Source: Gemmatimonadaceae bacterium
Lineage (GTDB): Bacteria > Gemmatimonadota > Gemmatimonadetes > Gemmatimonadales > Gemmatimonadaceae
Direction: 5' to 3'
NCBI GenBank assembly: GCA_024710705.1
Contig: JANJUF010000087.1
Coordinates: 1 to 59,304, forward strand
DNA length: 59,304 bases
Shown here: positions 31,574-56,974 of the stretch, one piece after another
How positions within the stretch are numbered: position 1 is the stretch's first letter
Layout: the number at the start of each line of letters is the position of its first letter
The notes under the pieces: generated by a model
What the model saw: the letters and a program-made list of their open reading frames with translations, nothing else
The model's database searches: none
Told to the model about the DNA's origin: nothing
Position numbers and translations under genes: made by a program

Positions 31574-32887
31574 CTATCGGGGCGAGTTCGTCTCACCGCG
31601 AGGCCAGACGGCAGCGAGCGGGGCGGCCAGTCGCCCCCCGACGTACTCGCCCACGTGCACGTTGCCAGCATCGTTCAAGTGTGTGTCGTTCGGCAGGAAC
31701 CACTCTCCCCGCTCCGCCAGGGCCTCCGACGTCATCACGAGCAGGTCCGCCGGCAGGGAGGCGAGCCAGGCATCCAGGCGCCCGAGGTCGTACGGAGCCG
31801 CCGGCGCATCGGCACCGACGGCCGCGCGGAGGACCGGATCCACCACGAGCGGGTCGGCGTGCACCACCACCGCGAACGGCACGCCCAAGGCAGCGGCCGT
31901 CTCGCGCATTCTGTGGAGCGCCGCGTGCACGTGCTCGAGCGGCAACGAGTCCCGCCGCGCGCCGTACGTCAGCTCGAGCCGCTCGCGCATCGTGGCGATG
32001 TACGTCTGCCGAAGCGCACCGCCGCCACCCCCCGGTGCGGCGATCGCGGCGCCCGCGTTGAGCATCGTGCGGCCGACGAGCGCGTAGCGGACCGTGCGGC
32101 TGTTCACGGGATGCAGCATCCGCAAGGACGTCGAGACGGGAAATCGTCCCGGCACGCCAGCCACGATGCGACGCTCGGTGCCCGGCAGGTTGTCGGTGAT
32201 GTCGTTGCCGACATACAGGTTGAACACGACGGCGTCGAAGGAGAATCCGACAGTGCGCAGGTGCGCCAACAGCTGCAGCGCGTCGAAGGGACCGTAGCCC
32301 GCCACGCCGGCATTCATCACCTCCACTGGTCGGCCGAGCACCCGGGCGATCGTGCGTTCGGCGACCTTGGGATAGTTGTGCTCAAGCGCACTCGCGCTAC
32401 CCTCGGTATACGAGTCCCCGAGGAACAGCAGTCGCGGGACGGACGGCGCCAACGCATACCGTTCGCCGAATCGCGCGGCGAACATCGCCTCCGGCGTGGA
32501 GGGTGTGCCCCGGTCGCCGTGCTTGCGGAGCCACACCCAGCCGTCGGTGGACTTCGTCTCATAGTAGGGGCCGCCCAGCACTGCCGTGGGACTGCGGCTC
32601 ACGAGCGTGATGTCCACGAGGGACACAATCGCTTCAACCAGCACCAGCATCCCGATGCCCGTGGTGGCGGCCCGCGCCCATCGCCAGTCGCGTTGCCACC
32701 ACCACTCGGCGCCAAGCGCCAGGGCCAGGGCCACGCTGCCGGCGAGCGCCAGCCCGGAGAACAGCGCCATGGCGCGGACGCCGGTGTTGAAGAGCGGGTA
32801 TTGCAGCGCGCCCATGTGGTCCTGCGCCACGATCGCCGCCGCCACCCCCACGAGCAGCACGACGGCCAGCGCGCGCCCGATCTTCAT
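31574..32887 (-). CDS. membrane-anchored SGNH/GDSL hydrolase (AlgX-like)
   Basis: A 437-residue protein with two or three N-terminal hydrophobic helices (about 6-23, 36-58, 70-90) and a periplasmic SGNH domain: block I FLGDSYTEGS, block II Gly in AGVAGYGP, block III GNDITDN, and the DxxH of block V in NDTHLNDAG. These enzymes transfer or remove acetyl groups on polysaccharides. ATG 32887 overlaps the stop of the preceding O-antigen-ligase-like gene by 4 nt. The pair suggests surface polysaccharide modification; the substrate is unknown. Confidence 0.82.
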   Translation of the reverse strand: MKIGRALAVVLLVGVAAAIVAQDHMGALQYPLFNTGVRAMALFSGLALAGSVALALALGAEWWWQRDWRWARAATTGIGMLVLVEAIVSLVDITLVSRSPTAVLGGPYYETKSTDGWVWLRKHGDRGTPSTPEAMFAARFGERYALAPSVPRLLFLGDSYTEGSASALEHNYPKVAERTIARVLGRPVEVMNAGVAGYGPFDALQLLAHLRTVGFSFDAVVFNLYVGNDITDNLPGTERRIVAGVPGRFPVSTSLRMLHPVNSRTVRYALVGRTMLNAGAAIAAPGGGGGALRQTYIATMRERLELTYGARRDSLPLEHVHAALHRMRETAAALGVPFAVVVHADPLVVDPVLRAAVGADAPAAPYDLGRLDAWLASLPADLLVMTSEALAERGEWFLPNDTHLNDAGNVHVGEYVGGRLAAPLAAVWPRGETNSPR

Positions 32888-34122
32888 CGCGCCATCGCCG
32901 TGACGCGCGCCCAGAGCACCCAGAGCGGCAGCATCAACAAAGGCATCAACAGCAGGTTGCCGAACAGACTGGCGACCACGACCGAGATCGTCGCCGCCCA
33001 GGCCCCGACCGCGAAGGCGCGTCGCTCCGCCGTTTGCTCGGCCGATCGCCACGTTCGGCGCGCCGCGACACCGACCGCGCCGAGCATGCCGAGGTAGGCC
33101 GTGAGCCCGAGCAGTCCCGTGAGCACGGCAATGAACAGCAGACCGCCGTCCATTGAGATCTCGGCGCCGCCGAGGGTTTCCCATCCGTACGCGCGTTGCG
33201 CGGGTCCGGCCGCGTTGAACCCGACGCCCAGCACCGGATAGTCGCGCACCATGATCCACCCGCGCAGCCAGGGCACGAGGCGCTGCAGCGCCGACGCGTC
33301 CACCTGCAGCTTGTTGAACCGATCGGCGAACCAGATCACCGCGGGAATGGCCGGCGCGAGCAGGATGGCCCCGCCGATCGCGACGCGGCGCAGCGACGGC
33401 CGCACGCCACGGGCGATGACGAGCACCGCGATGCCAGCGAGCAGTCCCAGCACCGCCGAGCGCGAGAGCGTGAGGATGAGTGCGGTGGTGAGCAGCAGCA
33501 GCACGCCGCGATGGTCGCGCAGTCCTTCATTCTCCCGCGCCAGCCGCATCAGCAGCACCATCGCGATCAGTGCGCCCGCGTGGTTGGGATCGAAGATCGT
33601 GCTGACCAGCCGCCGTCCCTGCATGTCCCACTCGAGTCCGGTCCATCCGCTCGCCTGCATCGCGAAGTTGGGCAGGAAGGCCGACTGGAGGATCCCGAAC
33701 GCGGCCACGGCAATCAGCACCCGCTCGAACAACCGCCAGGCATCGCCGGCGGCCGCCTCCGGCTCGGGGTCGCTCACGAGGAGCACGAACCACCCAGCGT
33801 AGAGAATCCAGCGCAGGAGAAACGCCGCTGCGCCGAAGAGTTCGCCGCCACCCAGGCCCCACTTCGGGATCGCCGCCCCGAGTGACGCGATGGCGACCAC
33901 CACGAAGAGCAGAGCCCACCGCGAGACCTGGTCGAGCGGCCATCGCCGGCGCCCGCTGATGAGCGTGAGCGCCAAGAGCAGCCAGAGCGGGATCAGCGTC
34001 AGGTCAAGCAGTGTGAGGGCGGCGCCGCGACCGCCGATCGCCGTGCCCGGGATGCGACCGAGCTGGGCGACGAGCAGTCCGACGGCTGCCGCCGCGACGA
34101 GCGAGCGCGTGCCGAGTCGCAC
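32884..34122 (-). CDS. O-antigen ligase-like (Wzy/WaaL) membrane protein
   Basis: A 412-residue polytopic protein (about 10-12 helices). The central periplasmic loop (about 255-290) holds RLVPWLRGWIMVRDYPVLGVGFN, which is the Wzy_C/WaaL pattern ('W..a..m..dhPl.GvG.n'). It joins or polymerises glycan chains from a polyprenyl carrier. It starts at GTG 34122 and overlaps the SGNH hydrolase start. No other polysaccharide genes are nearby, so the substrate is unknown. Confidence 0.82.
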   Translation of the reverse strand: MRLGTRSLVAAAAVGLLVAQLGRIPGTAIGGRGAALTLLDLTLIPLWLLLALTLISGRRRWPLDQVSRWALLFVVVAIASLGAAIPKWGLGGGELFGAAAFLLRWILYAGWFVLLVSDPEPEAAAGDAWRLFERVLIAVAAFGILQSAFLPNFAMQASGWTGLEWDMQGRRLVSTIFDPNHAGALIAMVLLMRLARENEGLRDHRGVLLLLTTALILTLSRSAVLGLLAGIAVLVIARGVRPSLRRVAIGGAILLAPAIPAVIWFADRFNKLQVDASALQRLVPWLRGWIMVRDYPVLGVGFNAAGPAQRAYGWETLGGAEISMDGGLLFIAVLTGLLGLTAYLGMLGAVGVAARRTWRSAEQTAERRAFAVGAWAATISVVVASLFGNLLLMPLLMLPLWVLWARVTAMAR

Positions 34123-34228
34123 TACGTCGCGCTCGAGCTGGAATGCATTGGCCCCACGACCCCGACGGACATGCCGGAAAACTTATCGAGCGGCGATTCC
34201 CTTGGGATGAGGAGCGCCGCGACCGCGG

Positions 34229-34732
34229 TCAGCCGATCGCGCGCCCGGTGCCACGCAGGGGCTTCGCCTGGGTCTTCGCGTCGGCGAGCGGGCAGAGCCG
34301 CCGCTGCGCCGCATGCTCCTCCTCGAGCGTCAGTCCCAACAGCATCTCGACCGCCTCCTCGCCGAGTTCGTGAGCCAGCTCCACGCAGACGCGATAGGCG
34401 GTGATCTGGTAGCGCTCAAGGCGATCCGCCACGTCGGTCAGCGCGGCGTCGCGCCGGCGTGGCTGCTTTGCCCGTTCCGAGCCCTCGACGAGCAGCGCCT
34501 CCACGACATCGCAGTGCCGAACCTTTGCTTCCGCACCGAGGATCGAGAAGCATTCCTCGAGACGAAGGACGTGGGTGAGGGTCTGCCCGAGGTGCTCCCG
34601 GAGTGCGGCCACCAGCTTGGGCGGCACCGCTGCGTTCACCAGCATTGGAAGCCCAATGAGGAGGTGCTGCTCGGCCGCGTAGAGATCCTGCAGTTCGTGG
34701 ACAAGCCGTGCGCGCGCGGGATGTATCGTCAT
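34229..34732 (-). CDS. DUF892 (YciE/YciF-like) protein
   Basis: A 167-residue, all-helical protein. It opens LVHELQDLYAAEQHLLIGLP, has REHLGQTLTHVLRLEECF, and later HELGEEAVEMLLGLTLEEEH, which are DUF892 signatures with conserved Glu and His that form a ferritin-like di-iron site. Such proteins are stress-linked and their function is little known. It is divergent from the HMG-CoA reductase operon. Confidence 0.85.
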   Translation of the reverse strand: MTIHPARARLVHELQDLYAAEQHLLIGLPMLVNAAVPPKLVAALREHLGQTLTHVLRLEECFSILGAEAKVRHCDVVEALLVEGSERAKQPRRRDAALTDVADRLERYQITAYRVCVELAHELGEEAVEMLLGLTLEEEHAAQRRLCPLADAKTQAKPLRGTGRAIG

Positions 34733-34917: not shown

Positions 34918-36204
34918 ATGCCCATCTCCTACGACCGCGCCCGCGAGCTCGCCCAACGCCTCCGCCGCGGACTCTCGCTCGAGGTCCTGAAGGACCGGCT
35001 CGCCTCGCGTGACCCCGAGGTGCACCCCACGCCCCCGCGCGTGCCCGGCCAAGGGGAATGGAGCGCCGAGGCCCGTGCGACCCGCCTCGCCTTCCTCGAG
35101 CAACGCGCCGGCGAGCTCCCCCAGCTCGGCGGGCGCGGCGAGCCCGTGGATGCGGCAGGGCTCAAGGGCAACATCGAGAACTTCATCGGGATGACGCAGA
35201 TCCCCACTGGCGTGATCGGTCCGCTGCGCATCAACGGGCTCCACGCGTCGGGCGACTACTACGTGCCGTTGGCGACTTCCGAAGGGGCCTTGGTGGCGAG
35301 CTTCGACCGCGGCGCGCGACTCCTCACCTCGGCCGGTGGCGTGGCGACCCTGGTGACGACCGAGCAGGTCCAACGGGCGCCGGGGTTCGTGTTCACGTCC
35401 ATCGCCGAAGCGGCACTCTTCGCGGCCTGGTCGGTGGAGCAGTTCGAGCGTTGCCGCGAAGTGGCATCCACGGCCACCAAGCACGGCCAGCTGGTGGATA
35501 TGCAGACGCATATCGAGGCCAATCACGTGTACCTGATCTTCGCCTACTACACCGGCGATGCCGCGGGGCAGAACATGGTGACGTTCTGCACGGCCGCCGT
35601 CTGCGCGGATATCCTCGAGCGTACGCCGATCAAGCCAGTCACGTGGTTCCTCGAAGCGAACATGTCGGGCGACAAGAAGGCGACGGCGCTGAGCTTCATC
35701 ACCACCCGCGGGCGCAATGCCACCGCCGAGGTGCGGCTGCCGGCAGCGTTGGTGGAACGCCGACTGCACACCACGCCCGAACGCATGGCGCAGTACTGGC
35801 GCATGAGCTTCATCGGCGGGGTGCAGAGCGGATCCATCGGCGTCAGCGGGCACATCTCGAACGGGATCGCCGCGCTCTTCCTCGCCACCGGGCAGGACGT
35901 GGCCTGCGTGAGCGAGGCCAGCGTGGGCATCACGCGGATGGAGGTGGAAGCCGACGGCTCGCTCTACGCGGCCGTCAGCCTCCCCAACCTCATCGTCGGC
36001 ACGGTGGGTGGCGGAACGAAGCTCCCCACCGCGGCGGAATGCCTGCGCATCCTCGACTGCGTGGGCAACGACCGGGCGTCGCGCCTGGCTGAGATCTGCG
36101 CGGCGGTGGCACTGGCGGGCGAGCTCTCGATCGTCGGCGCGCTCTGCGCCGGCGACTTCGCGCGCGCGCACGCGATGCTGGGCCGCGGCAAGTCCGCCAA
36201 ATGA
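34918..36204 (+). CDS. HMG-CoA reductase (class I-like)
   Basis: A 428-residue enzyme that reduces HMG-CoA to mevalonate with two NAD(P)H. Seen are ENFIGMTQIPTGVIGPL (class I 'ENxIG..P.GvaGPL'), the catalytic Glu in ATSEGALVAS, the catalytic Lys in MSGDKKATAL, the Asp in TGQDVACVSE, and a C-terminal His in FARAHAMLGRG. The GSIGVSGH and VGTVGGGTKL nucleotide-binding segments are present. It lacks the eukaryotic membrane anchor. ATG 34918 has only a weak leader but starts the conserved part. It is first of five coupled genes; no HMG-CoA synthase or mevalonate kinase is in the window, so a full mevalonate pathway cannot be shown here. Confidence 0.9.
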   Translation: MPISYDRARELAQRLRRGLSLEVLKDRLASRDPEVHPTPPRVPGQGEWSAEARATRLAFLEQRAGELPQLGGRGEPVDAAGLKGNIENFIGMTQIPTGVIGPLRINGLHASGDYYVPLATSEGALVASFDRGARLLTSAGGVATLVTTEQVQRAPGFVFTSIAEAALFAAWSVEQFERCREVASTATKHGQLVDMQTHIEANHVYLIFAYYTGDAAGQNMVTFCTAAVCADILERTPIKPVTWFLEANMSGDKKATALSFITTRGRNATAEVRLPAALVERRLHTTPERMAQYWRMSFIGGVQSGSIGVSGHISNGIAALFLATGQDVACVSEASVGITRMEVEADGSLYAAVSLPNLIVGTVGGGTKLPTAAECLRILDCVGNDRASRLAEICAAVALAGELSIVGALCAGDFARAHAMLGRGKSAK

Positions 36205-37142
36205 GCGACGCTCTCGCAGGACGTGCGTCGCTGCTCCGACGCCTCGCGACCTACCAACGCGAACGATTCCCGCTGGCCGCCTATCTCCCGCTGATCGCGA
36301 TCGCCGCGACGGCTGGCGTGGCGTGGTCGCGTGCGGCCCGCGGTGCCGAGGGATTCGTCAGTGGCGGGCGCTGGGGCACGGGCGCGTTCACGATGCTGGT
36401 GGCCTTCTTCCTCCTGCGCGTGGCCGACGAGCACAAGGACGCTGCGCTCGACCGCGTGGCGCGCCCGGAACTTCCGGTGCCCCGTGGCCTCATCACGCTG
36501 GCCGAACTGCGATGGGTGGGTGCGACGCTCGCCGCTGTGGTGATCGCACTCAATGCCTGGGTGGCACCGCAACTGCTGCTGCCGCTCGGCATCGTCGCCG
36601 TCTGGGGTGCGTTGATGACGAAGGAGTTCTTTGTGGCCGAGTGGCTCCGCGCGCGGCACGGCATCTACCTGCTGAGCCATATGGTGGTGATGTCGCTCAT
36701 CCTGCTCTATGCGAGCGCGGTGGACTGGCTGGCCGACGGCGCAGCGGCGCCACCCTTCATCGCGGTGTTCCTCGCAGCCACGTACGCCAACGGACTCGTC
36801 CTTGAGATCGGTCGCAAGCTGCGCGAGCCGGCCGCGGAGCGCCCGCAGGTGGAGACCTACTCGGCGATCTGGGGGCTCGGCCCCGCGCGCCAGATCTGGC
36901 TCGCCACGCTGGTCCTGGCCGCAGCACTCACCGCCTGGGCGATGACGGTTGCCGGCCTCTCGGCGATGCTGAGTTATTCGATTGGCGTCGTCGCCGTGAT
37001 CCTGCTCGCGATACCCTCGCGCGCGTTGGCGGCAGGAGAGCCGGGGAGTGGCAAGCGGATTGAGACCGTGAGTGGCGTGTGGAATCTCCTCGCCTACCTC
37101 TTGCTCGCCCTGCCGTGGGCGCTGCGGCTGCTCAACCGATGA
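36201..37142 (+). CDS. UbiA-family prenyltransferase
   Basis: A 313-residue membrane protein with eight or nine helices. The first Asp-rich motif appears as FLLRVADEHKDAALDRVARP followed by ELPVPRG, a divergent NDxxDxxxD, with the second as EIGRKLREPAAERPQVETYS. Both are near the expected positions for Mg-prenyl-diphosphate binding. It would join an isoprenoid chain to an aromatic or other acceptor; the divergence of motif 1 (ADEHKDA) leaves the acceptor open. ATG 36201 overlaps the HMGR stop by 4 nt, giving translational coupling. Confidence 0.85.
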   Translation: MSDALAGRASLLRRLATYQRERFPLAAYLPLIAIAATAGVAWSRAARGAEGFVSGGRWGTGAFTMLVAFFLLRVADEHKDAALDRVARPELPVPRGLITLAELRWVGATLAAVVIALNAWVAPQLLLPLGIVAVWGALMTKEFFVAEWLRARHGIYLLSHMVVMSLILLYASAVDWLADGAAAPPFIAVFLAATYANGLVLEIGRKLREPAAERPQVETYSAIWGLGPARQIWLATLVLAAALTAWAMTVAGLSAMLSYSIGVVAVILLAIPSRALAAGEPGSGKRIETVSGVWNLLAYLLLALPWALRLLNR

Positions 37143-39778
37143 GCGCGCTCGCTGGCAAGAAGCTCGGCGGGAAGGCCTCCAATCTGCTGCGGGTGGCGGA
37201 GGCCAAACTCCCCGTGCCGCGCTGGTTTGCGATTCCCGCCGAGGTGCACGAACGCCTCGTGCTCGCCGGATCCACGGCAACGGACGCCGAGCAGGCGGAG
37301 CGCCGGCAGCAGGAGGTCCTCACGATGGAGATTCCGTCGGATCTGCGCGAGGCGGTCCAGCGCGAGCTCGGGCGCCTGCGGCTCCACGGCCAGTCCCTCG
37401 CCGTGCGTTCGTCCGCAACTATAGAAGACGGTGCCTCGGCGTCGTTCGCCGGACAGTTCGAGACCGTGCTGGGCGTGGTGGCCACCGCTGCGGATGACGC
37501 AAAGCTCTGGGACGCCATCCGCCGCGTGTGGGCGTCGGCGTTCGGACTCCGCGCGCTCGCGTACGCCGGCGGCAGCAGTCTCGCCCCGCCGCCACCGATG
37601 GCGGTGCTCATCCAAGAGCTCGTGGATGCGCGCGCGGCTGGCGTGGTGTTCTCGATCGATCCCGTGAGCGGCGACACCGACACGGCCGTGGTGAGCGCCG
37701 TGATCGGACTCGGCGAGGAGCTGGTGTCCGGCGAGCAGGACGCCGACACCTGGCGCGTCGTCGGCAGCGGCTCGCGCGCGAAGGTGACGACCACCATCGC
37801 CGAGAAGACGCACGCACTGCTGCGCACGGCCGAAGGTGGCACCGCGCGCGTCGCCCTCACCGAGGCGCAGCGGCGCGCACCGGCGCTCTCCGACGCCGAG
37901 GCCTTGGCCGTCGCCGAGGCGGCGCGCGCGCTGGCGAGTGCGCTCGGCCGCCCGCAGGACGTGGAGTGGGCCATCTCCCGCGGTGACAACCGACTGCTGA
38001 TCCTGCAGGCGCGTCCGGTGACGGCCGCCGGGGTGCGCTCCCCTGCCGGCGAACTCCGCGTCTGGGACAACAGCAACATCATCGAGAGCTACGGCGGCCT
38101 CACGTCGCCGCTCACGTTCAGCTTCGCGCGCAGCGTCTATGAGGACGTGTACATCCAGTTCTGCCGCATCTCAGGCGTCACGGACGCGCTGATCGCCGAC
38201 CAGCGACACGTGTTCGCCCACATGCTCGGGCTGATTCGCGGGCGCGTGTACTACAACCTGCTGAACTGGTACCGCCTGCTGGCGATGCTGCCGGGCTACG
38301 CCTTCAACCGCGACTTCATGGAGCGGATGATGGGCGTGCGCGAGAAGCTCGCCGAGCCGCCCGATCCCCCGCCGGCGGCGAACCGCTGGGTGGACCTCAG
38401 CCGGCTGGTGCGCACGGTGGTGCGGTTGACGCTGGCCAACCGTGCGCTGGCCAAGGAGGTTCCGGCCTTCCACGCGCGCGTGGCGGCGGCGCTCGACCCG
38501 CTCGCCGGCGAGGATCTCTCGGCGCGGCAGCCGGAAGAGCTGCTGCGGCTGTACCGCCGGCTCGAGGACCGGCTGCTGCGCCATTGGCAACCGCCGCTGG
38601 TGAACGACTTCTTCGCGATGATCTGGTTCGGCGTGCTCGGGCGCTTGGTGCAGAAGTGGCTGCCCCAGGAGCCACCGACGCTCGTGAACGACCTGCTCTG
38701 CGGCGAGGGCGGCATCGTATCCACCGAGCCGGCGCGGCGGGTGATGGCGTTGGCCCGCGTGGTCCGCGAGCGGCCGGAACTGGTGGCGATGTTCGACTCC
38801 GAGCCGGACAACGCGGCGCTGGCGGCGCGCATCGCCGCCGAGGACGCCGCGCTGCCGCTACGCCTCGAGCTTGAGGACTACCTGCGCCGCTTCGGCGACC
38901 GCTGCATGAGCGAGCTCAAGCTTGAGACGGTGACGCCGTCGGAAGATCCGGCGTGGGTCGTGATGATGATCCGCGCCTACGTGGCCGGCGGGGCGATCGA
39001 TCCCGAGGCCGGGCACGCGCGCGAGCAGGCCATTCGCGCCGCCGCCGAGACACGCGTGGCCGCCGGGCTCAGCGGCCTTCGCGAGTGGGCCTTCCGGCGC
39101 GTGCTCGCCAGCGCACGCGTCCGCATCCGCGACCGCGAGAATCTCCGCTTCGAACGCACGCGCGTGTTCGGCGTGGTGCGTCGCATCTTCGTGGCATTCG
39201 GCAAGCAGCTCGCCGCGGCCGGTCGGCTCGACGACGCCCGCGACATCTTCTGGCTCACGCGCGACGAGGTCTTCGGCGAGGTGGAAGGCACGGCGCCCAC
39301 GCACGACCTGCGGGCGATTGTCGCCCTGCGGCGCGCCGAGTATGCGCGCTACGAGGCCGAGCCGGCGCCACCCGACCGCTTCACGACGCGTGGGATGCCG
39401 GGCAACTCCATTCCCACGTCCGCAAGCGCGGCGCTCGGCGATGGGGAGAACCTCCAAGGCATCGGCTGCTGCCCCGGCATCGTGCGGGCACCGGTGCGCG
39501 TGGTGCTTGATCCCTCGCAGGCCGGCGACCTGCGCGGACGCATCCTCGTGGCCGAGCGCACCGATCCGGGGTGGACGCTGCTCTTCCCCACCTCGTCGGG
39601 CCTGCTGGTGCAGCGCGGCAGTCTCCTCAGTCACTCGGCGATCGTTGCCCGCGAGATGGGCATTCCCTGCGTCGTCGCCATTCCCGGCTTGCTCGACACG
39701 CTCGTGGACGGGGAGATGGTAGAGATGGATGGCACTACTGGCATGGTGCGGCGCCTCGGCGCCGAGGCTGCCGCGTGA
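37139..39778 (+). CDS. PEP-synthase/rifampin-phosphotransferase-like dikinase of unknown substrate
   Basis: An 879-residue protein in three parts. An ATP-grasp PPDK_N-like domain (about 1-305) with KLGGKASNLLRVAEA, AVRSSATIEDGASASFAGQF and EWAISRGDNRLLILQARPV. A middle part (about 310-730) unlike the PEP-binding TIM barrel, with YYNLLNWYRLLAMLPGYAF. A C-terminal swivelling phospho-His domain: GIVRAPVRVVLDP, VQRGSLLSHSAIVAREMGIP with His832. Length and order match rifampin phosphotransferases (RPH), which move the beta-phosphate of ATP to a small molecule. Here it is coupled to HMGR and UbiA genes, so an isoprenoid or alcohol acceptor is a plausible, unproven substrate. Confidence 0.82.
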   Translation: MSALAGKKLGGKASNLLRVAEAKLPVPRWFAIPAEVHERLVLAGSTATDAEQAERRQQEVLTMEIPSDLREAVQRELGRLRLHGQSLAVRSSATIEDGASASFAGQFETVLGVVATAADDAKLWDAIRRVWASAFGLRALAYAGGSSLAPPPPMAVLIQELVDARAAGVVFSIDPVSGDTDTAVVSAVIGLGEELVSGEQDADTWRVVGSGSRAKVTTTIAEKTHALLRTAEGGTARVALTEAQRRAPALSDAEALAVAEAARALASALGRPQDVEWAISRGDNRLLILQARPVTAAGVRSPAGELRVWDNSNIIESYGGLTSPLTFSFARSVYEDVYIQFCRISGVTDALIADQRHVFAHMLGLIRGRVYYNLLNWYRLLAMLPGYAFNRDFMERMMGVREKLAEPPDPPPAANRWVDLSRLVRTVVRLTLANRALAKEVPAFHARVAAALDPLAGEDLSARQPEELLRLYRRLEDRLLRHWQPPLVNDFFAMIWFGVLGRLVQKWLPQEPPTLVNDLLCGEGGIVSTEPARRVMALARVVRERPELVAMFDSEPDNAALAARIAAEDAALPLRLELEDYLRRFGDRCMSELKLETVTPSEDPAWVVMMIRAYVAGGAIDPEAGHAREQAIRAAAETRVAAGLSGLREWAFRRVLASARVRIRDRENLRFERTRVFGVVRRIFVAFGKQLAAAGRLDDARDIFWLTRDEVFGEVEGTAPTHDLRAIVALRRAEYARYEAEPAPPDRFTTRGMPGNSIPTSASAALGDGENLQGIGCCPGIVRAPVRVVLDPSQAGDLRGRILVAERTDPGWTLLFPTSSGLLVQRGSLLSHSAIVAREMGIPCVVAIPGLLDTLVDGEMVEMDGTTGMVRRLGAEAAA

Positions 39779-40911
39779 GCGCGCACGTGGTCGCGCGGAT
39801 GCCGGCGCGGGCGGCCAGCGGCTCGGAGATCGGTGCGCGGGCCAAGTTCGACTTCCTGCGTTATGCGAGTGTGTGGGAGGATTCCGACATCCTTTGCGAT
39901 GCGCTGCGGCCGAGCGTGGCGGGCGGCCGCATCCTCTCGATCGCCTCGGCTGGCGACAACGCACTGGCGTTGCTGACGCTGGATCCCGCCGAGGTGGTGA
40001 CGGTGGACCTGAGCGAGCCGCAACTGGCGGCGGTGGAGCTGCGGGTTGTCGCCTTCCGCGAGCTCGACCGCGCGGCGTTGCTGGCCTTTCTCGGCATCAC
40101 GCCATCGAATGAGCGCGCCCGCACCTACGATGCAATCCGCGGCGCCCTCAGCGAGCGTGCGCGCACGTTCTGGGATCTCAACCCCGATGCCATCGCCCTC
40201 GGCGCGGCACACGCCGGGAAGTTCGAGCGTTTCTTCGGCATCTTCCGGCGCTTCGTGCTGCCGATCGTGCACGGACGGAGCCGGGTGCAGGCGCTGCTTG
40301 AGCCGCGTGACGCCGCTGGGCGCGAGCGGTTCTACGACGAGCGTTGGGACTCGTGGCGCTGGCGCCTCATCTTTCGCCTGTTCTTCAGCCGCTTCGTGAT
40401 GGGGCGTCTTGGGCGCGATCCCGAGTTCTTCGCGCACGTGGAAGGCAGCGTCGGCGAGCGGATCCTGTCACGAACCCGGCACGCGCTCACCGCGATCGAG
40501 ACGCATACCAACCCGTACCTCACATACATCCTGACCGGCAACTTCGCGGAGGGCGCGCTTCCGACGTATCTGCGCGCCGAGCACTACGCCACGATCCGGG
40601 ACCGCGTGGACCGCGTCACCTTGCTCCACGCGCCTGCCGAGCGTGCGCCGGGTCGCTTCGACGGATTCAATCTCTCGGACATCTTCGAGTATATGAGTCC
40701 GGCGGGCCACGCCGGCGCCTACCGCGCGCTGGCGGCGCTGGCGCGGCCGGGCGCGCGCATCGCCTACTGGAACCTCCTCGCGCCGCGTGGCATCCCCGAT
40801 GCGCTCAGCGACGGCGTGGTCGCCCTGCGTGAGCTGGCCGACGCCCTGCACCACCGCGACCGCGCGTGGTTCTACGGGGCCTTCCACGTGGATGAGGTGC
40901 GCGGCGCATGA
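39775..40911 (+). CDS. DUF3419 (BtaA-like aminocarboxypropyl transferase) protein
   Basis: A 378-residue protein. The SAM-binding region ILSIASAGDNALALLTLDPA then VVTVDLSEPQLAAVELR, the early KFDFLRYASVWEDSD, and later SRTRHALTAIETHTNPYLTY and GFNLSDIFEYMS are the DUF3419 pattern. The family includes BtaA, which adds the 3-amino-3-carboxypropyl group of SAM to diacylglycerol on the way to betaine lipids. No BtaB-like methyltransferase is seen. GTG 39775 overlaps the previous stop by 4 nt. A lipid alcohol acceptor derived from the same operon is possible but not shown. Confidence 0.85.
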   Translation: MSAHVVARMPARAASGSEIGARAKFDFLRYASVWEDSDILCDALRPSVAGGRILSIASAGDNALALLTLDPAEVVTVDLSEPQLAAVELRVVAFRELDRAALLAFLGITPSNERARTYDAIRGALSERARTFWDLNPDAIALGAAHAGKFERFFGIFRRFVLPIVHGRSRVQALLEPRDAAGRERFYDERWDSWRWRLIFRLFFSRFVMGRLGRDPEFFAHVEGSVGERILSRTRHALTAIETHTNPYLTYILTGNFAEGALPTYLRAEHYATIRDRVDRVTLLHAPAERAPGRFDGFNLSDIFEYMSPAGHAGAYRALAALARPGARIAYWNLLAPRGIPDALSDGVVALRELADALHHRDRAWFYGAFHVDEVRGA

Positions 40912-42329
40912 GCGCTGCCCTCGTCACCGAGCTCACGCGCGCGGCGCTGATCGGCGCGGCGTTCATCGCGCTGTTCGTGGCCGCCGAGCTGTGGCGGAAG
41001 CTCGGCGCCCCGCCGGTGGAGTGGACGCGCAAGCTCGTCCACTTCGGCGGCGGCGTGATCGCGGCGCTCTTCCCCTGGCTCATCACCAGCCATTGGACCG
41101 TCCTCGCGCTCGGCGCCGCCTTCCTCGGCATCCTCTGGGGCACGAGGCGGCTCGGACTGTTGCAGAGCGTGCACGGCGTGGCGCGGAGGTCAGAGGGCGG
41201 CATCTACTTCCCCATCGCGATCTATGTCGTGTTCCTACTCGGCTCCGGTCGGCCGGTGGCGTACTTCATCTCGGTGCTCGTGCTGGTGGTGGCCGACGCG
41301 GCGGCGGCCGTGCTCGGCTCGGCCTACGGTCGCCTCACCTACGATGTCGAGCGCGACAAGCGTAGCCTCGAAGGCTCCACCGTCTTCTTCGTGGCGACCT
41401 TCCTGATCGTCCATCTCTCGCTGCTGCTGTTGACGGACATTGACCGCACGCTGAGCGTGCTCGCCGCCCTGCAGATCGCCCTCATCGTCACGCTGTTCGA
41501 GGCCATCAGCATCGAGGGGAACGACAACCTCCTCGTGCCGCTGGCCACCTACTTCCTGCTCTTCAAGCTCACGCAGCAGATGCCGGAGACGCTGCAACTC
41601 CAGCTGGTGGCGCAGTTGGTGATCATCTCCATCATCGGGTTGATGGCGTGGCGGATTCCCTTCGTGACCGGCAGTGGGGCGGCAGCACTCACGCTGTTCG
41701 TGTACGGCGCATACTCGCTTGGCGATCCCGAATGGGTGGTGGGGCCCACGGTGGGCATCGCGGCCTTCGGCCTGCTCTTTGCGCGGCGCATCGAGGACTT
41801 CCGCGCCTCGAACCCCAAGTACCAGGTCATCGCGGCGTTCTACATCTGCATCGTCCCAACGCTGCTGCTCCTGGCGAACAACATCTTCAAGACGATTCTG
41901 CTGCGCCCGGAGTGGTTGGCCGTTGGCGATCCGTTCTATCCGGTGTTCCTGGGGGCCTGCGCCGCGCAGCTGGCGATCGCGGCGTGGAACCTCGAGCCGA
42001 CGGCTGGCGGCAGTGCGCTCGGGATGCCGGGATGGAACGCCGAGTCCAGCGCGCGGCCGCCGCACGAGTGGTCGCTGGCGGTTGGCTTCGCGTTCGCGGC
42101 GCTGGTCGTGGTGATCGGTCCCGGGGCCTACGCGAAGGGGATTGGGTGGCCCTCGATCGCTGTTGCCGCGTCGGTGGCCCTGCTCGGGCCCGCGATCTAC
42201 CACGGCGCGCGGCATCTCGCGTGGTGGCCCAAGCATCCGCCCTGGAACATCCGTCTCGCGATGGCGAGCGTGGCGCTGGGGAGTGCGACGGTGCTGGCGG
42301 CGCTGCTGCCCGCGCTCGCGCGGCGCTGA
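40908..42329 (+). CDS. phytol/dolichol-kinase-like membrane protein with extra C-terminal helices
   Basis: A 473-residue polytopic protein. The N-terminal half (about 1-220) has WRKLGAPPVEWTRKLVHFGG, EGGIYFPIAIY and the catalytic pattern VADAAAAVLGSAYGRLTYDV-ERDKRSLEGST, which is the ADxxA..GxxxG...KSLEGS motif of CTP-dependent polyprenol/phytol kinases and CDP-DAG synthases. The other half (about 230-470) has seven more hydrophobic helices not seen in VTE5/VTE6 and is unassigned. ATG 40908 overlaps the DUF3419 stop by 4 nt. It likely phosphorylates an isoprenoid alcohol. Confidence 0.82.
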   Translation: MSAALVTELTRAALIGAAFIALFVAAELWRKLGAPPVEWTRKLVHFGGGVIAALFPWLITSHWTVLALGAAFLGILWGTRRLGLLQSVHGVARRSEGGIYFPIAIYVVFLLGSGRPVAYFISVLVLVVADAAAAVLGSAYGRLTYDVERDKRSLEGSTVFFVATFLIVHLSLLLLTDIDRTLSVLAALQIALIVTLFEAISIEGNDNLLVPLATYFLLFKLTQQMPETLQLQLVAQLVIISIIGLMAWRIPFVTGSGAAALTLFVYGAYSLGDPEWVVGPTVGIAAFGLLFARRIEDFRASNPKYQVIAAFYICIVPTLLLLANNIFKTILLRPEWLAVGDPFYPVFLGACAAQLAIAAWNLEPTAGGSALGMPGWNAESSARPPHEWSLAVGFAFAALVVVIGPGAYAKGIGWPSIAVAASVALLGPAIYHGARHLAWWPKHPPWNIRLAMASVALGSATVLAALLPALARR

Positions 42330-42333
42330 GCGA

Positions 42334-43917
42334 TCAGCCGAGCAGGGCCCGCAGCGTCTCGGTGTCGGTCTTGGAGGCGTGCCGCGGGTCCCGCGGGATG
42401 TGTTCCACGCGCCGGAACTCATCCACCGGATGCGGTGCCACCCGCGCGATGATCTCGGCGCGCGAGTCCGCATCCAGTGCAGTGGGCGATTCCACGACCA
42501 ACACCGCACGCTGGCGGCCCGGCTCGCCCACGCCGAGGTAGGCCGCGTGGCGCACCAAGGCGTGCGTGAGCGCCCGGGTCTCCGCCGGCAGCCCCCACCA
42601 GACGCCATCCTCGCGCCGCACGCGCTCGCGCACGCGGCCCAACAACCAGAGGCGTCCGTCCGCGTCAAGGCGCCCCCCATCGCCCGTGCGGTGCCATACC
42701 CGCGTTCCATCGCGCAGCTTCGCCGCGCGTTCGGCGGCTGGGTCATTCAGGTAGCCACGAAGCACGTGGTCACCCGCCACGACGATCTCGCCGGTCTCGC
42801 CGCGCGGCACTGCCAGCGCGGCGATGCCGCCCGCGGGCAGATCCACCACACCATCCTCGGCGCGGATGATGCGCACCGTGGCCTGCGGAACGGGCGGCCC
42901 GACACAGATACCGCCGCCCGCCTCTCCTTCCGGGCGATCGTCGCGGGCCGCGAGCAGGGCACGCATGGCGATCCCGGAGATGGGTTCGGCCTCGGTGCTG
43001 CCGTACACCACGTGCGCCTCGCCCTCCACGTTCGCGACCAATCGCGTCGCCAATGGAGGTAGCACTGGCGCGCCACCGGTGAAGAGCGCCCGCACCGGAA
43101 TCTTCTGGCCGGTGACTTCGGCGTGGCTGACCAACCGTTCGTAGAAGGCAGGCGATCCAGTGGTCGTCGTCACACGCTCGGCGACAAGCTGTGCCCAGAC
43201 CCGTGCCGGATCGATGTCGGCCGGCCGGCGCGGATCGAAATCGGGAATCACGCTCGGCACGCCGAGCGCGAGATTGTTGAGCACGAAGATGGGCAGCGTC
43301 GGCATGTCCACATCGTCTTCGCGGAGACCGAGGTGCGCGGCCAGCGCCTCGTGCTGGGCCCAGAGGAAGCCGTGCGTGCGCACGGCAGCCTTGGGCGCAC
43401 CGGTGCTGCCGGTGGTGAACGTGATGAGCGCCGGCGCGTCGGCGGTGGCGACGCAAGCGCCGTCGGGTGGCGCCGAGCGAAGGGCGCGTCCGCCGACCAC
43501 GAAATGGTGTTCGATGCCGCGCAGGGCCGGCGAGAGGAGCCGCAGCATCTGCGCCTTCCACGACCCGACGAAGGCCTTCGGTGCGGCCATGCGCACGGCG
43601 GCGTCCAGGCGTTTCCGATCGGCCCAGGCGTCCACGAATACGGCCGTGCCACCGGCGTGGAGCACGCCCAGCATGGCCGCATAGAGTTCGGCGGACATCG
43701 GCACGAAGATGAGCACGCAGTCGCCCGGCCCCACCCCGTGCGCCCGGAGTGAGGCGCCCATGCTGCCGACGCGCGCGGCGAGCTCGCCGAAGCTCGTGCG
43801 CCGGGCCTTTCCGCCGCGGTACTCGACGATCGCTGGCCGCTCGGGATGCAACGCGGCGCGAGTGAGCAGTCGCGCCGCGATGTTCGCGTCCGTCGCTGGC
43901 GTCACGGGGACATCCAC
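42334..43917 (-). CDS. OleC-like AMP-dependent ligase
   Basis: A 527-residue adenylate-forming enzyme. P-loop-type LITFTTGSTGAPKAAVRTHG, the acyl-adenylate motif YGSTEAEPISG, the TGD motif (WHRTGDGGRLDADGRLW), and the terminal Lys (SKTDTETLRAL) are all present. The VIPDFDPRRPADIDPARVW stretch and short C-terminus resemble OleC (beta-lactone synthetase) and related AMP-ligases rather than CoA ligases with long C-terminal domains. It overlaps the GNAT gene by 16 nt and is convergent, four bases apart, with the phytol-kinase-like gene. It may activate a fatty or beta-hydroxy acid for the same product. Confidence 0.82.
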   Translation of the reverse strand: MDVPVTPATDANIAARLLTRAALHPERPAIVEYRGGKARRTSFGELAARVGSMGASLRAHGVGPGDCVLIFVPMSAELYAAMLGVLHAGGTAVFVDAWADRKRLDAAVRMAAPKAFVGSWKAQMLRLLSPALRGIEHHFVVGGRALRSAPPDGACVATADAPALITFTTGSTGAPKAAVRTHGFLWAQHEALAAHLGLREDDVDMPTLPIFVLNNLALGVPSVIPDFDPRRPADIDPARVWAQLVAERVTTTTGSPAFYERLVSHAEVTGQKIPVRALFTGGAPVLPPLATRLVANVEGEAHVVYGSTEAEPISGIAMRALLAARDDRPEGEAGGGICVGPPVPQATVRIIRAEDGVVDLPAGGIAALAVPRGETGEIVVAGDHVLRGYLNDPAAERAAKLRDGTRVWHRTGDGGRLDADGRLWLLGRVRERVRREDGVWWGLPAETRALTHALVRHAAYLGVGEPGRQRAVLVVESPTALDADSRAEIIARVAPHPVDEFRRVEHIPRDPRHASKTDTETLRALLG

Positions 43918-44900
43918 TCGAACAACGCGTAGCGCCGGAAGCGTGTGGTGGTACGTTCGGACATTCGCTTCGAGGCGTTGCTCAGGTGCATCAGCGCATG
44001 GATCACGGCGCGGTGCCCCTTGGCCACGGCGAGGCTGCGCGTGCGGTCCATCAGGAGACTGCCGAGCCCGACGCCACGAAGCGAGGGCTTGGTGACGAGC
44101 GTCTTGAGCACCACGCGACCCGGCGTGCCGGCGGCGGCTCCGAGCGGGTCCAGGAAGGCGAACGAGAATCCCACCAACGCGCCCGAGGCATCGCGGGCGA
44201 GCTCCACGAGCTCCGGATCGATGATCGGCCGCAGCGGCGTGTACATCGCAACGAAGGCGTCGCGGGCGATCGGGCGGTAGAAGGGATTGTCGCCGAACGA
44301 CTCGAGACTCAGCGCATGGATCTCGGCGAGCGATTCCTCGAATCGGTCGAGCGCGAGGGCTTCGATGCGGATGCCTGCCGCGGCGACTTTCAGGGCGGCG
44401 GCCTCCGCCTTCGGATCGACGATGGAGAGATCGCGCTGGATGCGACTCTCATACTCGACCGTCGGCCCGAATCCGGCAGCGGCGAAGTGCTCGAGGTACT
44501 CCGGCGGATTCACCGGCTCGCTCAAGTACGGCGGCTCGTTCCGCTCGTCCGGCGTTTCTGGCGGCAACGCCAGTCGGTACCGCGCCCAAGTGCTGCCGTT
44601 CATCGGGCCCAGCACACGCACGGCACCGTCGGCCTTGAGTGCAGCCGCCGCCGCACGGAGCAGTGTCGCGCCGCCCTCAGCGTCGCGCGCACCGTAGTGG
44701 CCAAGCACGCCGCTCAGTCCCGGGGCGTCGTGTAGGTCATCGAAGCGATACGTCGCGAGCCCAGCCACGACCGCGGCGCCGCGGCGCGCCACCCAACACT
44801 CGGCGCCCGCAGCCAGTGGCTCCTTCTGCTTGAGCGCGATCAGGAATCCGTCCAGGTCCTCGGCACGTGCCGCGCGCTCGACCTGCAACGCCGGGCTCAC
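43902..44900 (-). CDS. GNAT-family acetyltransferase
   Basis: A 332-residue protein with two GNAT-like lobes. The first (about 1-150) has GAECWVARRGAAVVAGLATY; the second (about 170-320) has LVTKPSLRGVGLGSLLMDR, which is the Q/RxxGxG/A acetyl-CoA motif, and HALMHLSNASKRMSE. Family members of this length include lipid- or peptidoglycan-modifying N-acyltransferases. The start is GTG 44900, overlapping the MMPL stop by 4 nt. It probably acts on the product of the cluster; the acceptor is unknown. Confidence 0.78.
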   Translation of the reverse strand: MSPALQVERAARAEDLDGFLIALKQKEPLAAGAECWVARRGAAVVAGLATYRFDDLHDAPGLSGVLGHYGARDAEGGATLLRAAAAALKADGAVRVLGPMNGSTWARYRLALPPETPDERNEPPYLSEPVNPPEYLEHFAAAGFGPTVEYESRIQRDLSIVDPKAEAAALKVAAAGIRIEALALDRFEESLAEIHALSLESFGDNPFYRPIARDAFVAMYTPLRPIIDPELVELARDASGALVGFSFAFLDPLGAAAGTPGRVVLKTLVTKPSLRGVGLGSLLMDRTRSLAVAKGHRAVIHALMHLSNASKRMSERTTTRFRRYALFEWMSP

Positions 44901-46945
44901 GTGGCGCGCCCCGCGTTCCGCGGTACGAGCAGTAGCGGCAGCAGCAGCAGGTCCGCAGCCAGCGCGCCCAGCACCGCGACCGTCGTCACCAACCCGAACG
45001 ACGCCACCGACGCCGACCCTGAGGTGATCATCACGCCGAATCCTAGCGCGAGCACCGCCGTGGTGAGAAGCACCGCGCGTCCGGAAACCACGGCCGTGCG
45101 TCGCATCGCTTCCGGCGGCGCGAATCCCGCGGCGCGCTCGCGCTGGAACTGCACCAGCAGGTGGATGCTGTCGTCCACCGCGAGGCCGAGCACGATGGCG
45201 CCGACCGTCGCCGTGCCGATGTCGAGCGGGATACCGAACCATCCCATCACGCCGAACACCAGCAGGACCGGAAAGAGGTTGGCCGGAAGGGCCGCGAGCG
45301 TAAGCCGCACCGAGCGCATGAGGGCGCCGAGGATCGTGAAGACGAGCAGGAACGCGATGCCGAGCCCGGTGATGGTGCTGCGCACCGTGTAGTCGGTGAT
45401 TCGCACATAGAGCGGCAGGTAGCCACTCGCCTCCACGCGGGCGCCAGGCATCTCCACCGCGGCGAGCGCGACGATGGCGGTGGAGGTCGTGTCGAATCCC
45501 GCCGCGCTCATCATCGGCACGAAGGCCGTGGCACGCGCGCCGGCGATGACCACGCGGTCCACTTCGGGGCGTGCCAGCACGGCAGCGCGCCAGCGCTCGC
45601 GGGCCACGCTCGCCGCAGCCGAATCCGCCGCAGCGTCCTGCACCACGAATTCCAGCGGCGTGTAGTTGCCTAGCCGCGACTCAATCCACCGACTGTCCTC
45701 GCGCACCGCGTGGTCGGAGGGAAGCATCCCGATGGTGAGCGTGTCCACCCGGATGCGCGTCACGCCGACGGAGAGCACCGCGATCGCTGCCACCCAGAGC
45801 ACGGTCGCGCCGATGCGGTGCCGCTGGAGCGCGTCCATCAGTCCGCCCACACGCACGCCCACGCGTCCACCGGAACCGGGTGCTGCCAAGCCAACCGCCG
45901 GCGGCGCGCGCAGCACCATCAGTGCCGTTCCGGCCACCATCACCACCACCCACGCGATGAGCATCCCAATCGCCGCGAAGGCGCCGAAGTCCCGCACGAC
46001 CGCCAGCTTCGACGTCATGAGCGCGAGGAACCCCACCGCCGTCGTCAACGACGTATAGAAGCAGGGCACGGCCACTGAGGCCGCGCGTTCGGCCACCACA
46101 TCCAGCCAGCTGCGCGAGCCGGCGTCCTGCGCCCAGGCCTCGTCCATGTGCGCAATCATATGAATGGCGTCGGCGAGGGCGATCACCAGCACCAGCGTCG
46201 GCAATCCGGCCGTCACCATCGTGAGGGGACGGCCGGCCAGCGCCAGCGGGCCGAGCGAAGCCAGCGCCGCCACCAGCGCCGGCGCGAGCGCCACGCCCAC
46301 CGTGCCCCAGCGTCCCAGCGCCACCCGCAGCACCGTCACCATCAGCAGCAGCGCCAGCATCAGGAAGAGGCCCGTGTCCCGCAGCGTCTGCCGGTTGAGT
46401 TCCTCGTAGAGCACGCCGGTGCCGGCGTAGCGAAGGCGGCGACCACTGGCGCCGAGCGTTTCGGATGCGGCCGCGCGCACCGCGTCGAGCAACGCGCCGC
46501 GCACGAGGTCGATGTCTTCCCGTGCGGTCACGCGGGCGACGAGCGCGAGCGTGCGACCGTCGGCGGACGCCAGTCCCGACTGCGCGAGCAGCGCCGGTGT
46601 GGCTCCAGGAATCTCTCCCGCCGCAATCACCTCGGCGATGTCATCCATCGCACGCAGCTTGGTGGCGAGTGCGCGCTGTGCCGCCGCCTCTGCCGGCGTC
46701 CAACCTGACGGCGCTTCGTAGGCGATGACGATGGCTTCGTCGTTGCCGAAGGTCGCGAGAAAGTCACGATAGGCCACCAGCGCCGGATCGTCGTCCACGA
46801 ACCAGACGCTGAGGCTGTTGTCGGGGCGAAGGCCGGCGCCGGCGATGAACAGCGGTGCGAGGGCGAGCAGGAGCCCAACCAGCGCCAGGCGCGGGCGGCG
46901 GGCGATGGCGCCGGCGACAGCAACAAGCGAGCGGCGACCGATCAC
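44897..46945 (-). CDS. MMPL/RND-family lipid transporter (HpnN-like)
   Basis: A 682-residue inner-membrane protein. Helix 1 (LALVGLLLALAPLFIAG) is followed by a periplasmic domain, a block of five helices (VIALADAIHMIAHMDEAW with Asp typical of MMPL TM4), a second periplasmic loop and a final block (VGAIVLGLAVDDSIHLLVQF). It is half the size of AcrB, as MmpL and HpnN proteins are. Such pumps export lipids such as hopanoids or trehalose glycolipids. It is the first gene of the minus-strand three-gene operon and fits as the exporter of the cluster product. The cargo is inferred. Confidence 0.85.
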   Translation of the reverse strand: MIGRRSLVAVAGAIARRPRLALVGLLLALAPLFIAGAGLRPDNSLSVWFVDDDPALVAYRDFLATFGNDEAIVIAYEAPSGWTPAEAAAQRALATKLRAMDDIAEVIAAGEIPGATPALLAQSGLASADGRTLALVARVTAREDIDLVRGALLDAVRAAASETLGASGRRLRYAGTGVLYEELNRQTLRDTGLFLMLALLLMVTVLRVALGRWGTVGVALAPALVAALASLGPLALAGRPLTMVTAGLPTLVLVIALADAIHMIAHMDEAWAQDAGSRSWLDVVAERAASVAVPCFYTSLTTAVGFLALMTSKLAVVRDFGAFAAIGMLIAWVVVMVAGTALMVLRAPPAVGLAAPGSGGRVGVRVGGLMDALQRHRIGATVLWVAAIAVLSVGVTRIRVDTLTIGMLPSDHAVREDSRWIESRLGNYTPLEFVVQDAAADSAAASVARERWRAAVLARPEVDRVVIAGARATAFVPMMSAAGFDTTSTAIVALAAVEMPGARVEASGYLPLYVRITDYTVRSTITGLGIAFLLVFTILGALMRSVRLTLAALPANLFPVLLVFGVMGWFGIPLDIGTATVGAIVLGLAVDDSIHLLVQFQRERAAGFAPPEAMRRTAVVSGRAVLLTTAVLALGFGVMITSGSASVASFGLVTTVAVLGALAADLLLLPLLLVPRNAGRAT

Positions 46946-55511: not shown

Positions 55512-55512
55512 G

Positions 55513-56967
<1,455 letters not shown>

Positions 56968-56974
56968 CGCACCG

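Follow-up and report, generated by a model that had tools for sequence, protein, structure and literature searches.

UbiA prenyltransferases, among them DGGGP synthase and chlorophyll synthase, are a membrane family characterized by two Asp-rich motifs. BtaA, a member of the DUF3419 family, acts with BtaB in the synthesis of the betaine lipid DGTS, while Rph, PEP synthase-like enzymes, PigC and RedH combine an ATP-binding N-terminal domain with a phospho-His C-terminal domain, and OleC and PRK09274 ligases possess the AMP-binding fold. In the human HMG-CoA reductase (HMGR), K735 forms a salt bridge to the HMG carboxylate (PMC9500038). An HMGR adjoining a GHMP kinase (PMC12419801) represents another context.

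Relatives of several of these proteins are encoded side by side in the window considered here, that is, the whole stretch of 59,304 nt from a Gemmatimonadaceae bacterium (contig JANJUF010000087.1). With moderate confidence, we take seven of the genes (A–G) to be one biosynthetic unit. Its product, a small molecule that has not been described, is most likely a membrane-associated lipid or isoprenoid conjugate that is N-acylated and carries an amino-acid head group. The enzymes all belong to known superfamilies, and the novelty lies in the combination of genes, the putative pathway and the altered HMGR. An earlier note on this DNA knew of no described pathway with this set, and our searches of the open-access literature for the gene set or its parts, for HMGR residues and for GNAT/ceramide likewise pointed to no paper describing the set; PMC2922099 offered nothing relevant.

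Locus architecture and conservation

Eight uninterrupted ORFs (A–H) occupy positions 34918-46945 of the window (Table 1). Genes A to E lie on the + strand, each sharing 4 nt with the next, and F, G and H lie on the - strand with overlaps of 16 nt (F/G) and 4 nt (G/H); the two groups converge with a 4-nt gap (E stop 42329, F end 42334). The ORF coordinates bear out the gene number, overlaps and gap that had been reported for the locus. Among the loci seen, only L010-L012 share this convergent arrangement; in most of the others G and F come after E with no change of strand. A promoter and terminator scan found none and was uninformative.

Table 1. Genes of the locus, with their positions in the window and the basis of each assignment
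Gene	Product	Position	Strand	Basis
A	HMG-CoA-reductase-family protein, 428 aa	34918..36204	+	HMG-CoA_red (PF00368), 369.6 bits, 2.2e-110; PDB alignments; residue table
B	UbiA-like membrane transferase, 313 aa	36201..37142	+	weak UbiA match; nearest solved relative 6m31
C	PPDK-type dikinase/ligase-like protein, 879 aa	37139..39778	+	PPDK_N (PF01326) 8-298; PEP-utilizers (PF00391) 800-868
D	DUF3419 protein, BtaA superfamily, 378 aa	39775..40911	+	DUF3419 (PF11899), 197.9 bits, 3.9e-58
E	polytopic membrane protein, 473 aa	40908..42329	+	alignment of members; no Pfam family
F	AMP-forming acyl ligase, PRK09274/OleC-like, 527 aa	42334..43917	-	AMP-binding (PF00501), 178.3 bits, 2.6e-52
G	tandem-GNAT N-acyltransferase, 332 aa	43902..44900	-	PF00583; predicted model; Foldseek
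H	MMPL/RND-type membrane protein, 682 aa	44897..46945	-	MMPL (PF03176), 57.2 bits

All seven of the genes A–G were present in 67 of the 80 loci found with D and, where flanking DNA was sufficient, in 54 of 59, a degree of conservation that excludes chance. The loci were picked for their likeness to D, with 80 retained out of 117 relatives, so these figures measure conservation among close relatives of D; many of the records are MAGs by title, so that single absences mean little. At the genome level, 200 genomes from the phylum were examined; A (at least 49% identity) and D (at least 50% identity) were each detected in 17, with 16 genomes common to both (Fisher 1.7e-21), and in 12 of these 16 the two genes share a contig, no further than about 6 kb apart. 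The gene order is shuffled in L013, L014, L016, L031, L032 and L045, with the genes still clustered. These observations support A–G as a functional unit. The refuting condition suggested for the locus, a rare co-occurrence of its genes, was put to the test, and the outcome for the seven genes was the opposite. The eighth gene, proposed earlier as the exporter of an eight-gene system, lies outside the conserved unit: within the flanking DNA covered, tblastn matched H in just two of the 80 loci (L013 and L014), and weakly, and both the MMPL protein as a component and export as a function of the unit were dropped on this ground.

By record title, carriers of the cluster include culturable Rhodobacteraceae (Ruegeria, Roseovarius, Sulfitobacter, Yoonia), Bartonella apihabitans and Planctomycetota, and span at least nine phyla; if our reading is right, a pathway distributed this widely, including among culturable strains, yields an unknown molecule. 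Within the window's own genus D is sporadic (3 of 17 genomes, the window's own genome counted). When the insertion site was compared in 11 same-genus genomes, the upstream O-antigen ligase was recovered in 2/11 and the downstream amidohydrolase in 0/11, and no shared neighbours emerged. Plasmid records matching D numbered 14; among the four that were examined, one of which (Sinorhizobium K101) carries no annotation to judge by, the cluster was seen only in Roseinatronobacter sp. S2.

The HMGR-family protein and mevalonate supply

Protein A has the fold of HMGR (class I/archaeal type) and keeps its catalytic residues (E87, K253, D327 and H418) together with the equivalents of human R590, N755 and D690, whereas its score lies below the TIGR00533 equivalog cut-off (322.3 vs 441.8 bits) and its pocket is altered. 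The equivalent of human S684 is E246 in the window protein and that of K735 is M296; the first of these columns holds Glu or Asp, and the second a residue other than Lys, in 71/71 aligned A sequences. The residue preceding M296 is Arg in 50 of the 71 sequences and Lys in 3 more, and this Arg might serve as a stand-in for K735. Both Ser and Lys are kept in two HMGRs outside the cluster (L131, L141) and in 6hr7. The two Ser/Lys HMGRs were nested among the Glu-type ones in a small tree, one row of which is a useless 16-aa fragment, so that the Glu type may not form one clade. Judged by the aligned residues, A is probably a neofunctionalised HMGR-family reductase with a changed substrate, which would mean that the HMGR fold, so far associated with a single reaction, has been put to another use.

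The earlier note had tied A to mevalonate formation, a reading in which A would serve isoprenoid supply and B to E would build a lipid from the isoprenoid. The PF00368 match and the retained catalytic residues fit such a role, HMG-CoA is obtainable in principle from leucine breakdown, and some match to a mevalonate kinase model was obtained in 27 of the 38 cluster genomes, only 2 of them over the cut-off. However, weak, below-cut-off mevalonate kinase matches turn up in control genomes too, and HMG-CoA synthase was found in 1/38 cluster genomes, whereas IspH of the MEP pathway was found in 32/38. The sole genome with HMG-CoA synthase (G070) carries a second HMGR, that of L131, with Ser and Lys. 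On the two enzyme counts and the change of the HMG-carboxylate-binding residues throughout A, mevalonate supply by A was rejected, and the sub-threshold equivalog score likewise speaks against it; we regard this reading as very unlikely. If our reading is right, an HMGR annotation in an MEP-pathway bacterium offers no sound basis for inferring a mevalonate pathway. One further genome (G073, locus L027) seems to hold a cluster without A: the only HMGR found there is distant, with a pocket that is not alignable, its mevalonate kinase scores over the cut-off, and IspH was looked for in it and not found.

The remaining proteins of the unit

The window sequence of B scores 17.2 bits against UbiA (PF01040), below the Pfam cut-off of 34.2, and 24/24 aligned members match UbiA at E<=1 (best 6.2e-14). 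Its matches include both chlorophyll synthase and DGGGP synthase, an ether-lipid prenyltransferase that is also its nearest solved relative (E=1e-4). The first Asp motif is kept as D76/D80/D84, but the region of the second reads E202..R205 K206, an E..RK pattern present in all 24 aligned sequences, and prenyl transfer by B is not secure because the usual second Asp motif is absent.

In the second membrane protein, E, the N-terminal ~240 aa are conserved and the C-terminal half is variable or missing among members. Its conserved motifs resemble those of CTP-dependent polyprenol/diacylglycerol kinases. No relevant Pfam or NCBIfam family was returned for the 23 members searched, and Foldseek with the AlphaFold model (pLDDT 81) gave no PDB match at E<=0.001; the label 'phytol/dolichol-kinase-like' given to E before reflects these motifs and is confirmed by neither library nor fold search. 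A fusion of two phytol-pathway kinases, VTE5 plus VTE6/DUF92, was also considered for E and is not supported, as only 1/23 members touched DUF92 (E=0.023). The polyprenol-kinase-like motifs and the two UbiA-family matches of B would suit prenyl-alcohol salvage, in which E and C would phosphorylate a prenol as far as its diphosphate and B would join this to the ring of a quinone or pigment, with A, D, F and G tailoring the product. Such salvage, however, could do without A, D and G, its carriers include lineages not known as phototrophs (Bartonella and Planctomycetota, by record title), and a prenol-kinase assignment for E finds no backing in the libraries; we regard this reading, too, as very unlikely.

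C consists of an N-terminal ATP domain, a central domain and a C-terminal phospho-His domain, whose H832 recurs in at least 95% of the 77 sequences compared. It shares the two outer domains with Rph, PEP synthase-like proteins, PigC and RedH, but falls under every cut-off shown, both for PRK06241.2-2 (806.5 bits vs 883) and for the named enzymes (Rph 288.2/999, PigC 311.3/1300, RedH 355.3/1350); its scores against generic PEP-synthase-like models exceed its PigC score.

D belongs to the same family as BtaA and is a probable SAM 3-amino-3-carboxypropyltransferase. It has WED and glycine-rich positions in common with a DUF3419 protein of Rhizobium leguminosarum, which adjoins a SAM methyltransferase and is taken with it for a BtaA-BtaB pair; yet the two proteins are 25.8% identical and fall on opposite sides of a split with support 1.000. 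D differs from the betaine-lipid system further in that the families widespread in the 38 cluster loci included no methyltransferase and that six other enzymes accompany it.

The models that best match F are those of PRK09274 (396.9 vs 478 bits) and OleC, and with the two OleC models its scores of 262.3 and 193.4 bits stay far below the respective cut-offs of 900 and 850. The widespread families of the 38 loci included no extra one of the kind of the OleC partners OleA, OleB and OleD. G exceeds the GNAT cut-off (26.3 vs 20.7 bits), and its predicted model (pLDDT 95) retrieved tandem GNATs in Foldseek (7q3a at 4.7e-13), including MAB_4324, mycothiol synthase, a clavulanic-acid-pathway GNAT and an MprF domain. 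By domain and fold, G is a tandem GNAT N-acyltransferase.

Candidate product and pathway

We infer the product and the order of steps from these assignments. E and C would phosphorylate or activate a lipid alcohol, which B would couple to an acceptor; D would transfer a 3-amino-3-carboxypropyl group from SAM, F would turn a carboxylate into an acyl-adenylate or thioester, and G would acylate an amine. A, as a putative NADPH-dependent four-electron reductase, would convert a thioester other than HMG-CoA to the alcohol, and its substrate may be an amino-acyl thioester held by E246. Lipid-type chemistry is plausible because D falls in the betaine-lipid-synthase family, B has an ether-lipid prenyltransferase as its nearest solved relative, G is a tandem GNAT, and the variant locus L138 combines a member of DUF3419 and an HMGR of the E246 type with DAGK_cat (diacylglycerol kinase) and CTP_transf_1. 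The amino-lipid biosynthesis proposed before survives as a functional unit with plausible lipid-type chemistry, and loses mevalonate formation and export. A more specific version, which we consider improbable, would make the cluster a new kind of lipid headgroup pathway: D would form a homoserine-type (aminocarboxypropyl) ether, F would activate its carboxylate, A, as a class of HMGR-fold enzyme not recognised before, would reduce the aminoacyl thioester to a homoserinol-type amino alcohol with Glu246 holding the alpha-ammonium, and G would N-acylate the product to a sphingolipid-like amide lipid without sphingolipid enzymes.

Possible, if on the unlikely side, is that A–G make, in place of a lipid, a specialised metabolite that is soluble or secreted, such as a signal, pigment or metallophore, with D placing the aminocarboxypropyl group on a small molecule, C ligating two halves in the manner of PigC/RedH, F and G capping and B prenylating. 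The sub-threshold RedH and PigC matches of C (355 and 311 bits) and the patchiness of D within the genus are consistent with this, and an activation-acylation pair such as F/G would fit. A core with two membrane proteins (B and E), the betaine-lipid-synthase superfamily of D, the lipid kinase and CTP_transf_1 at L138 and the better scores of C with generic PEP-synthase-like models than with PigC speak against it. Against a lipid product, in turn, stands the likeness of C to the prodigiosin ligases as well, which make a pigment.

Gene layout and conservation of the cluster

All eight ORFs of the earlier note are present in the window sequence, together with the 4-nt overlaps that chain A through E and join G to H, the 16-nt overlap of F and G, and the 4-nt gap between the operons. 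Pfam assigned a family to each of the eight proteins except E, for which its search returned no match. None reached a curated NCBIfam cut-off among the matches listed (for F, the best 25 of 99), so none of the eight is filed as a named enzyme. The source assembly (3.0 Mb, 137 contigs) is 87.6% complete.

Window features and DUF3419 loci elsewhere
Feature	Coordinates	Content
A (HMGR-like, +)		Pfam HMG-CoA_red
B (UbiA-like, +)		Pfam UbiA, under cut-off for the window protein
C (PPDK/RPH-like, +)		Pfam PPDK_N + PEP-utilizers
D (+)		Pfam DUF3419
E (membrane protein, +)		
F (AMP-ligase, -)		Pfam AMP-binding
G (tandem GNAT, -)		Pfam GNAT
H (exporter, -)		Pfam MMPL
Window region	16080-21158	AcrB-type RND transporter, then CopC-CopD protein
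Just upstream of cluster	31574-34732	GDSL-like, O-antigen-ligase-like and DUF892 proteins; link to cluster not found
Downstream of cluster	52866-58402	Row of M1 peptidase, multicopper oxidase, amidohydrolase
Variant cluster of genome G240	L138:6140-14967	DAGK_cat, CTP_transf_1, DUF3419, E246-type HMGR, FtsX/MacB-type permease, ornithine/DAP-type decarboxylase, GNAT, 251-aa membrane protein
Variant locus of genome G059	L095:8093-15843	DUF3419 beside DAGK_cat, GNAT-like match, PLP decarboxylase fused to class II aldolase domain, permease-like ORF (by eye)
Rhizobium plasmid pMK-2 (CP041205)	L100:1886-8224	DUF3419 (28% to D) amid ketoacyl-ACP synthase III, NAD(P)-dependent oxidoreductase, MBL-fold hydrolase, CoF synthetase (annotations)

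A to G form a conserved unit with assigned families and retained catalytic residues. Loci were collected from genome contigs with D as query (the best 80 of 117 relatives), and gene presence was scored by tblastn with the eight window proteins. All seven genes were found at 67/80 D loci and, where the flanks extended at least 6 kb upstream and at least 4.5 kb downstream of D, at 54 of 59, the opposite of the rare co-occurrence that the earlier note had named as evidence against it. The five long-flank exceptions carried BCDE (L015), ADE (L017), all but A (L027), all with E undetected (L045) and BCD (L087). Export by the MMPL protein, proposed as part of the system, is not supported, as H lies outside the conserved unit: in the fetched flanks it was matched by tblastn at only two of the 80 loci (L013 and L014), both weakly. 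Because H overlaps G by 4 nt, the two may nevertheless be co-expressed in the window.

By record title, the full set occurs in Gemmatimonadota, Planctomycetota, Acidobacteria, Verrucomicrobia, Lentisphaerae, Bacteroidetes, Eremiobacterota, a Sulfurimonadaceae MAG and Proteobacteria; L027, from an anaerolinealean, and L045, from a MAG labelled cyanobacterial, have six of the seven genes. The commonest arrangement is A-B-C-D-E-G-F on a single strand; the convergent layout of the window recurs in L010-L012, and L013/L014, L016, L031, L032 and L045 retain clustering with a reshuffled order. An all-against-all comparison of ORFs of at least 90 aa from 38 chosen loci gave no further widespread family among the 45 largest listed: the remaining large families resemble, as judged by eye, antisense or shadow frames belonging to A-G. 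After these comes an ABC-transporter-like frame, present at 7/38 loci. Pairwise distances of the seven proteins correlate at 0.91-0.96 (64 sequences), to which shared host descent contributes. A circular plasmid record of 137 kb from Roseinatronobacter sp. S2 (NZ_CP121116) carries the cluster, with the HMGR cut at the record's end; the cluster can thus be plasmid-borne.

Co-occurrence was also counted genome-wide, regardless of contig, in 200 genomes of the phylum (at least 90% completeness requested; the window's own genome included), with identity thresholds of at least 49% for A and 50% for D, which were set after the lists had been seen, at a gap present in both. A and D each occurred in 17 genomes and together in 16 (Fisher 1.7e-21), G104 having only A and G032 only D. 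In 12 of the 16 they share a contig, about 6 kb or less apart; in G160, G227, G235 and G205, whose assemblies are fragmented, they lie on separate contigs. Sub-threshold matches (A at 38-43% in eight genomes, D at 32-38% in six) coincided only in G240. The distribution of the cluster is sporadic, since only 3/17 genomes of the window's genus, its own counted, hold D.

Proteins B to G and the possible lipid context of DUF3419

Of the solved structures, digeranylgeranylglyceryl phosphate synthase lies nearest to a 24-sequence profile of B (1e-4), followed by chlorophyll synthase (6e-4). D76, E77, K79, D80, D84, E202, R205 and K206 are invariant in that alignment; the second motif of UbiA-type enzymes is usually Asp-rich. 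C has two Pfam domains with a conserved phospho-histidine, H832, and its nearest models (PEP-synthase-like, RedH, PigC, Rph) all score under cut-off. For E, the 16 invariant residues all lie in the N-terminal 211 aa, and L027, L031 and L094 keep only this N-terminal half; its motifs presumably resemble those of CTP-dependent polyprenol/diacylglycerol kinases. The predicted model of E (pLDDT 81) had no PDB match at E<=0.001. F is best matched by PRK09274-like and then OleC-like models, and G is confidently modelled (pLDDT 95) as a tandem GNAT fold. The adjacency of G and F in most loci suggests acyl activation followed by N-acylation.

No solved homologue of D was found at E<=1. A split with support of 1.000 separates D from a Rhizobium DUF3419 protein (L143) and four other DUF3419 proteins. 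L143 adjoins a SAM methyltransferase, and we take the two for a BtaA-BtaB pair; this putative BtaA shares the WED and glycine-rich positions with D, to which it is 25.8% identical. The strongest hint of lipid-related core chemistry is that DUF3419 recurs with lipid enzymes at L138 and L095, though these are just two loci. The 251-aa membrane protein of L138 had no Pfam match and carries what we take to be a CDP-alcohol-transferase-like motif; no HMGR-like gene was seen at L095. The run at L100 is possibly another undescribed DUF3419 pathway. That A-G would lead to a lipid-type product, with A repurposed, seems to us an even bet. Searches of an open-access collection for the gene set or its parts gave no paper that describes the set, judged by titles and abstract openings, which is not proof of novelty; the term DUF3419 occurs in four papers of that collection.

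Residues and pathway context of the HMGR-like protein A

The structure nearest to A is HMG-CoA reductase 6hr7 (9.1e-88), followed by 8ecg, 7uli, 2q1l and 1dq8 (about 1e-46 to 1e-48). Of 71 aligned A sequences (the window's and those of 70 loci), at least 70 retain the residues corresponding to human E559, K691, D767, H866 and R590; one sequence is gapped at E559, and L045, whose frame seems broken, departs at D767 and H866. The HMGR frame of this cyanobacterial-labelled MAG (L045/L136) appears broken or misassembled. The S684 column holds 68 Glu and 3 Asp, and that of K735 (window M296) 40 V, 17 M, 11 I, 2 L and 1 T. PMC3875450 places S684 within the substrate pocket and K735 among the inhibitor contacts, and PMC9500038 assigns K735 the salt bridge to the carboxylate. 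Ser and Lys occupy these columns in the control HMGRs, namely the second HMGR of G070 (L131) and that of G114 (L141), and in 6hr7 (by its alignment with A); the L138 HMGR (motif LESNLSHDKK) has Glu at the K735 and Gln at the H752 column. We infer that A would reduce a thioester other than HMG-CoA. Counting against a change of substrate, position 295, beside M296, is Arg in 50/71 and Lys in 3/71 sequences and could partly replace K735. In a small tree L131 and L141 fall among the Glu-type HMGRs, which are therefore not established as a single clade.

The pathway census covered 38 cluster-bearing genomes (32 via diversity-picked loci of the 80, plus six further relatives) and 14 controls. HMGR (PF00368) was found in 38/38 carriers and 5/14 controls, HMG-CoA synthase (PF08540) in one carrier (G070) and 4/14 controls, and IspH in 32/38 and 9/14. 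Mevalonate kinase matched at any strength in 27/38 carriers, over cut-off in two (G070, G073), and in 13/14 controls, five over cut-off. Failure to find HMG-CoA synthase in 37/38 is a pattern, though several genomes are incomplete and single absences mean little. With the S684 and K735 equivalents changed, HMG-CoA synthase in 1/38 and IspH in 32/38, these data speak against mevalonate formation, the role first proposed for A, and we are fairly confident that A does not serve the mevalonate pathway.

A is missing from the long cluster contig in L015, L027, L087 and L093, and the genomes of three of these loci have an E246-type HMGR elsewhere (L132, L135, L133). In G073, the genome of L027, the sole HMGR found is distant (33% identity over 120 residues), mevalonate kinase is present and IspH was not found. 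The E246-type HMGRs at L132, L133 and L140 (LESNFATDKK), outside the seven-gene cluster, have weak AMP-ligase matches nearby.
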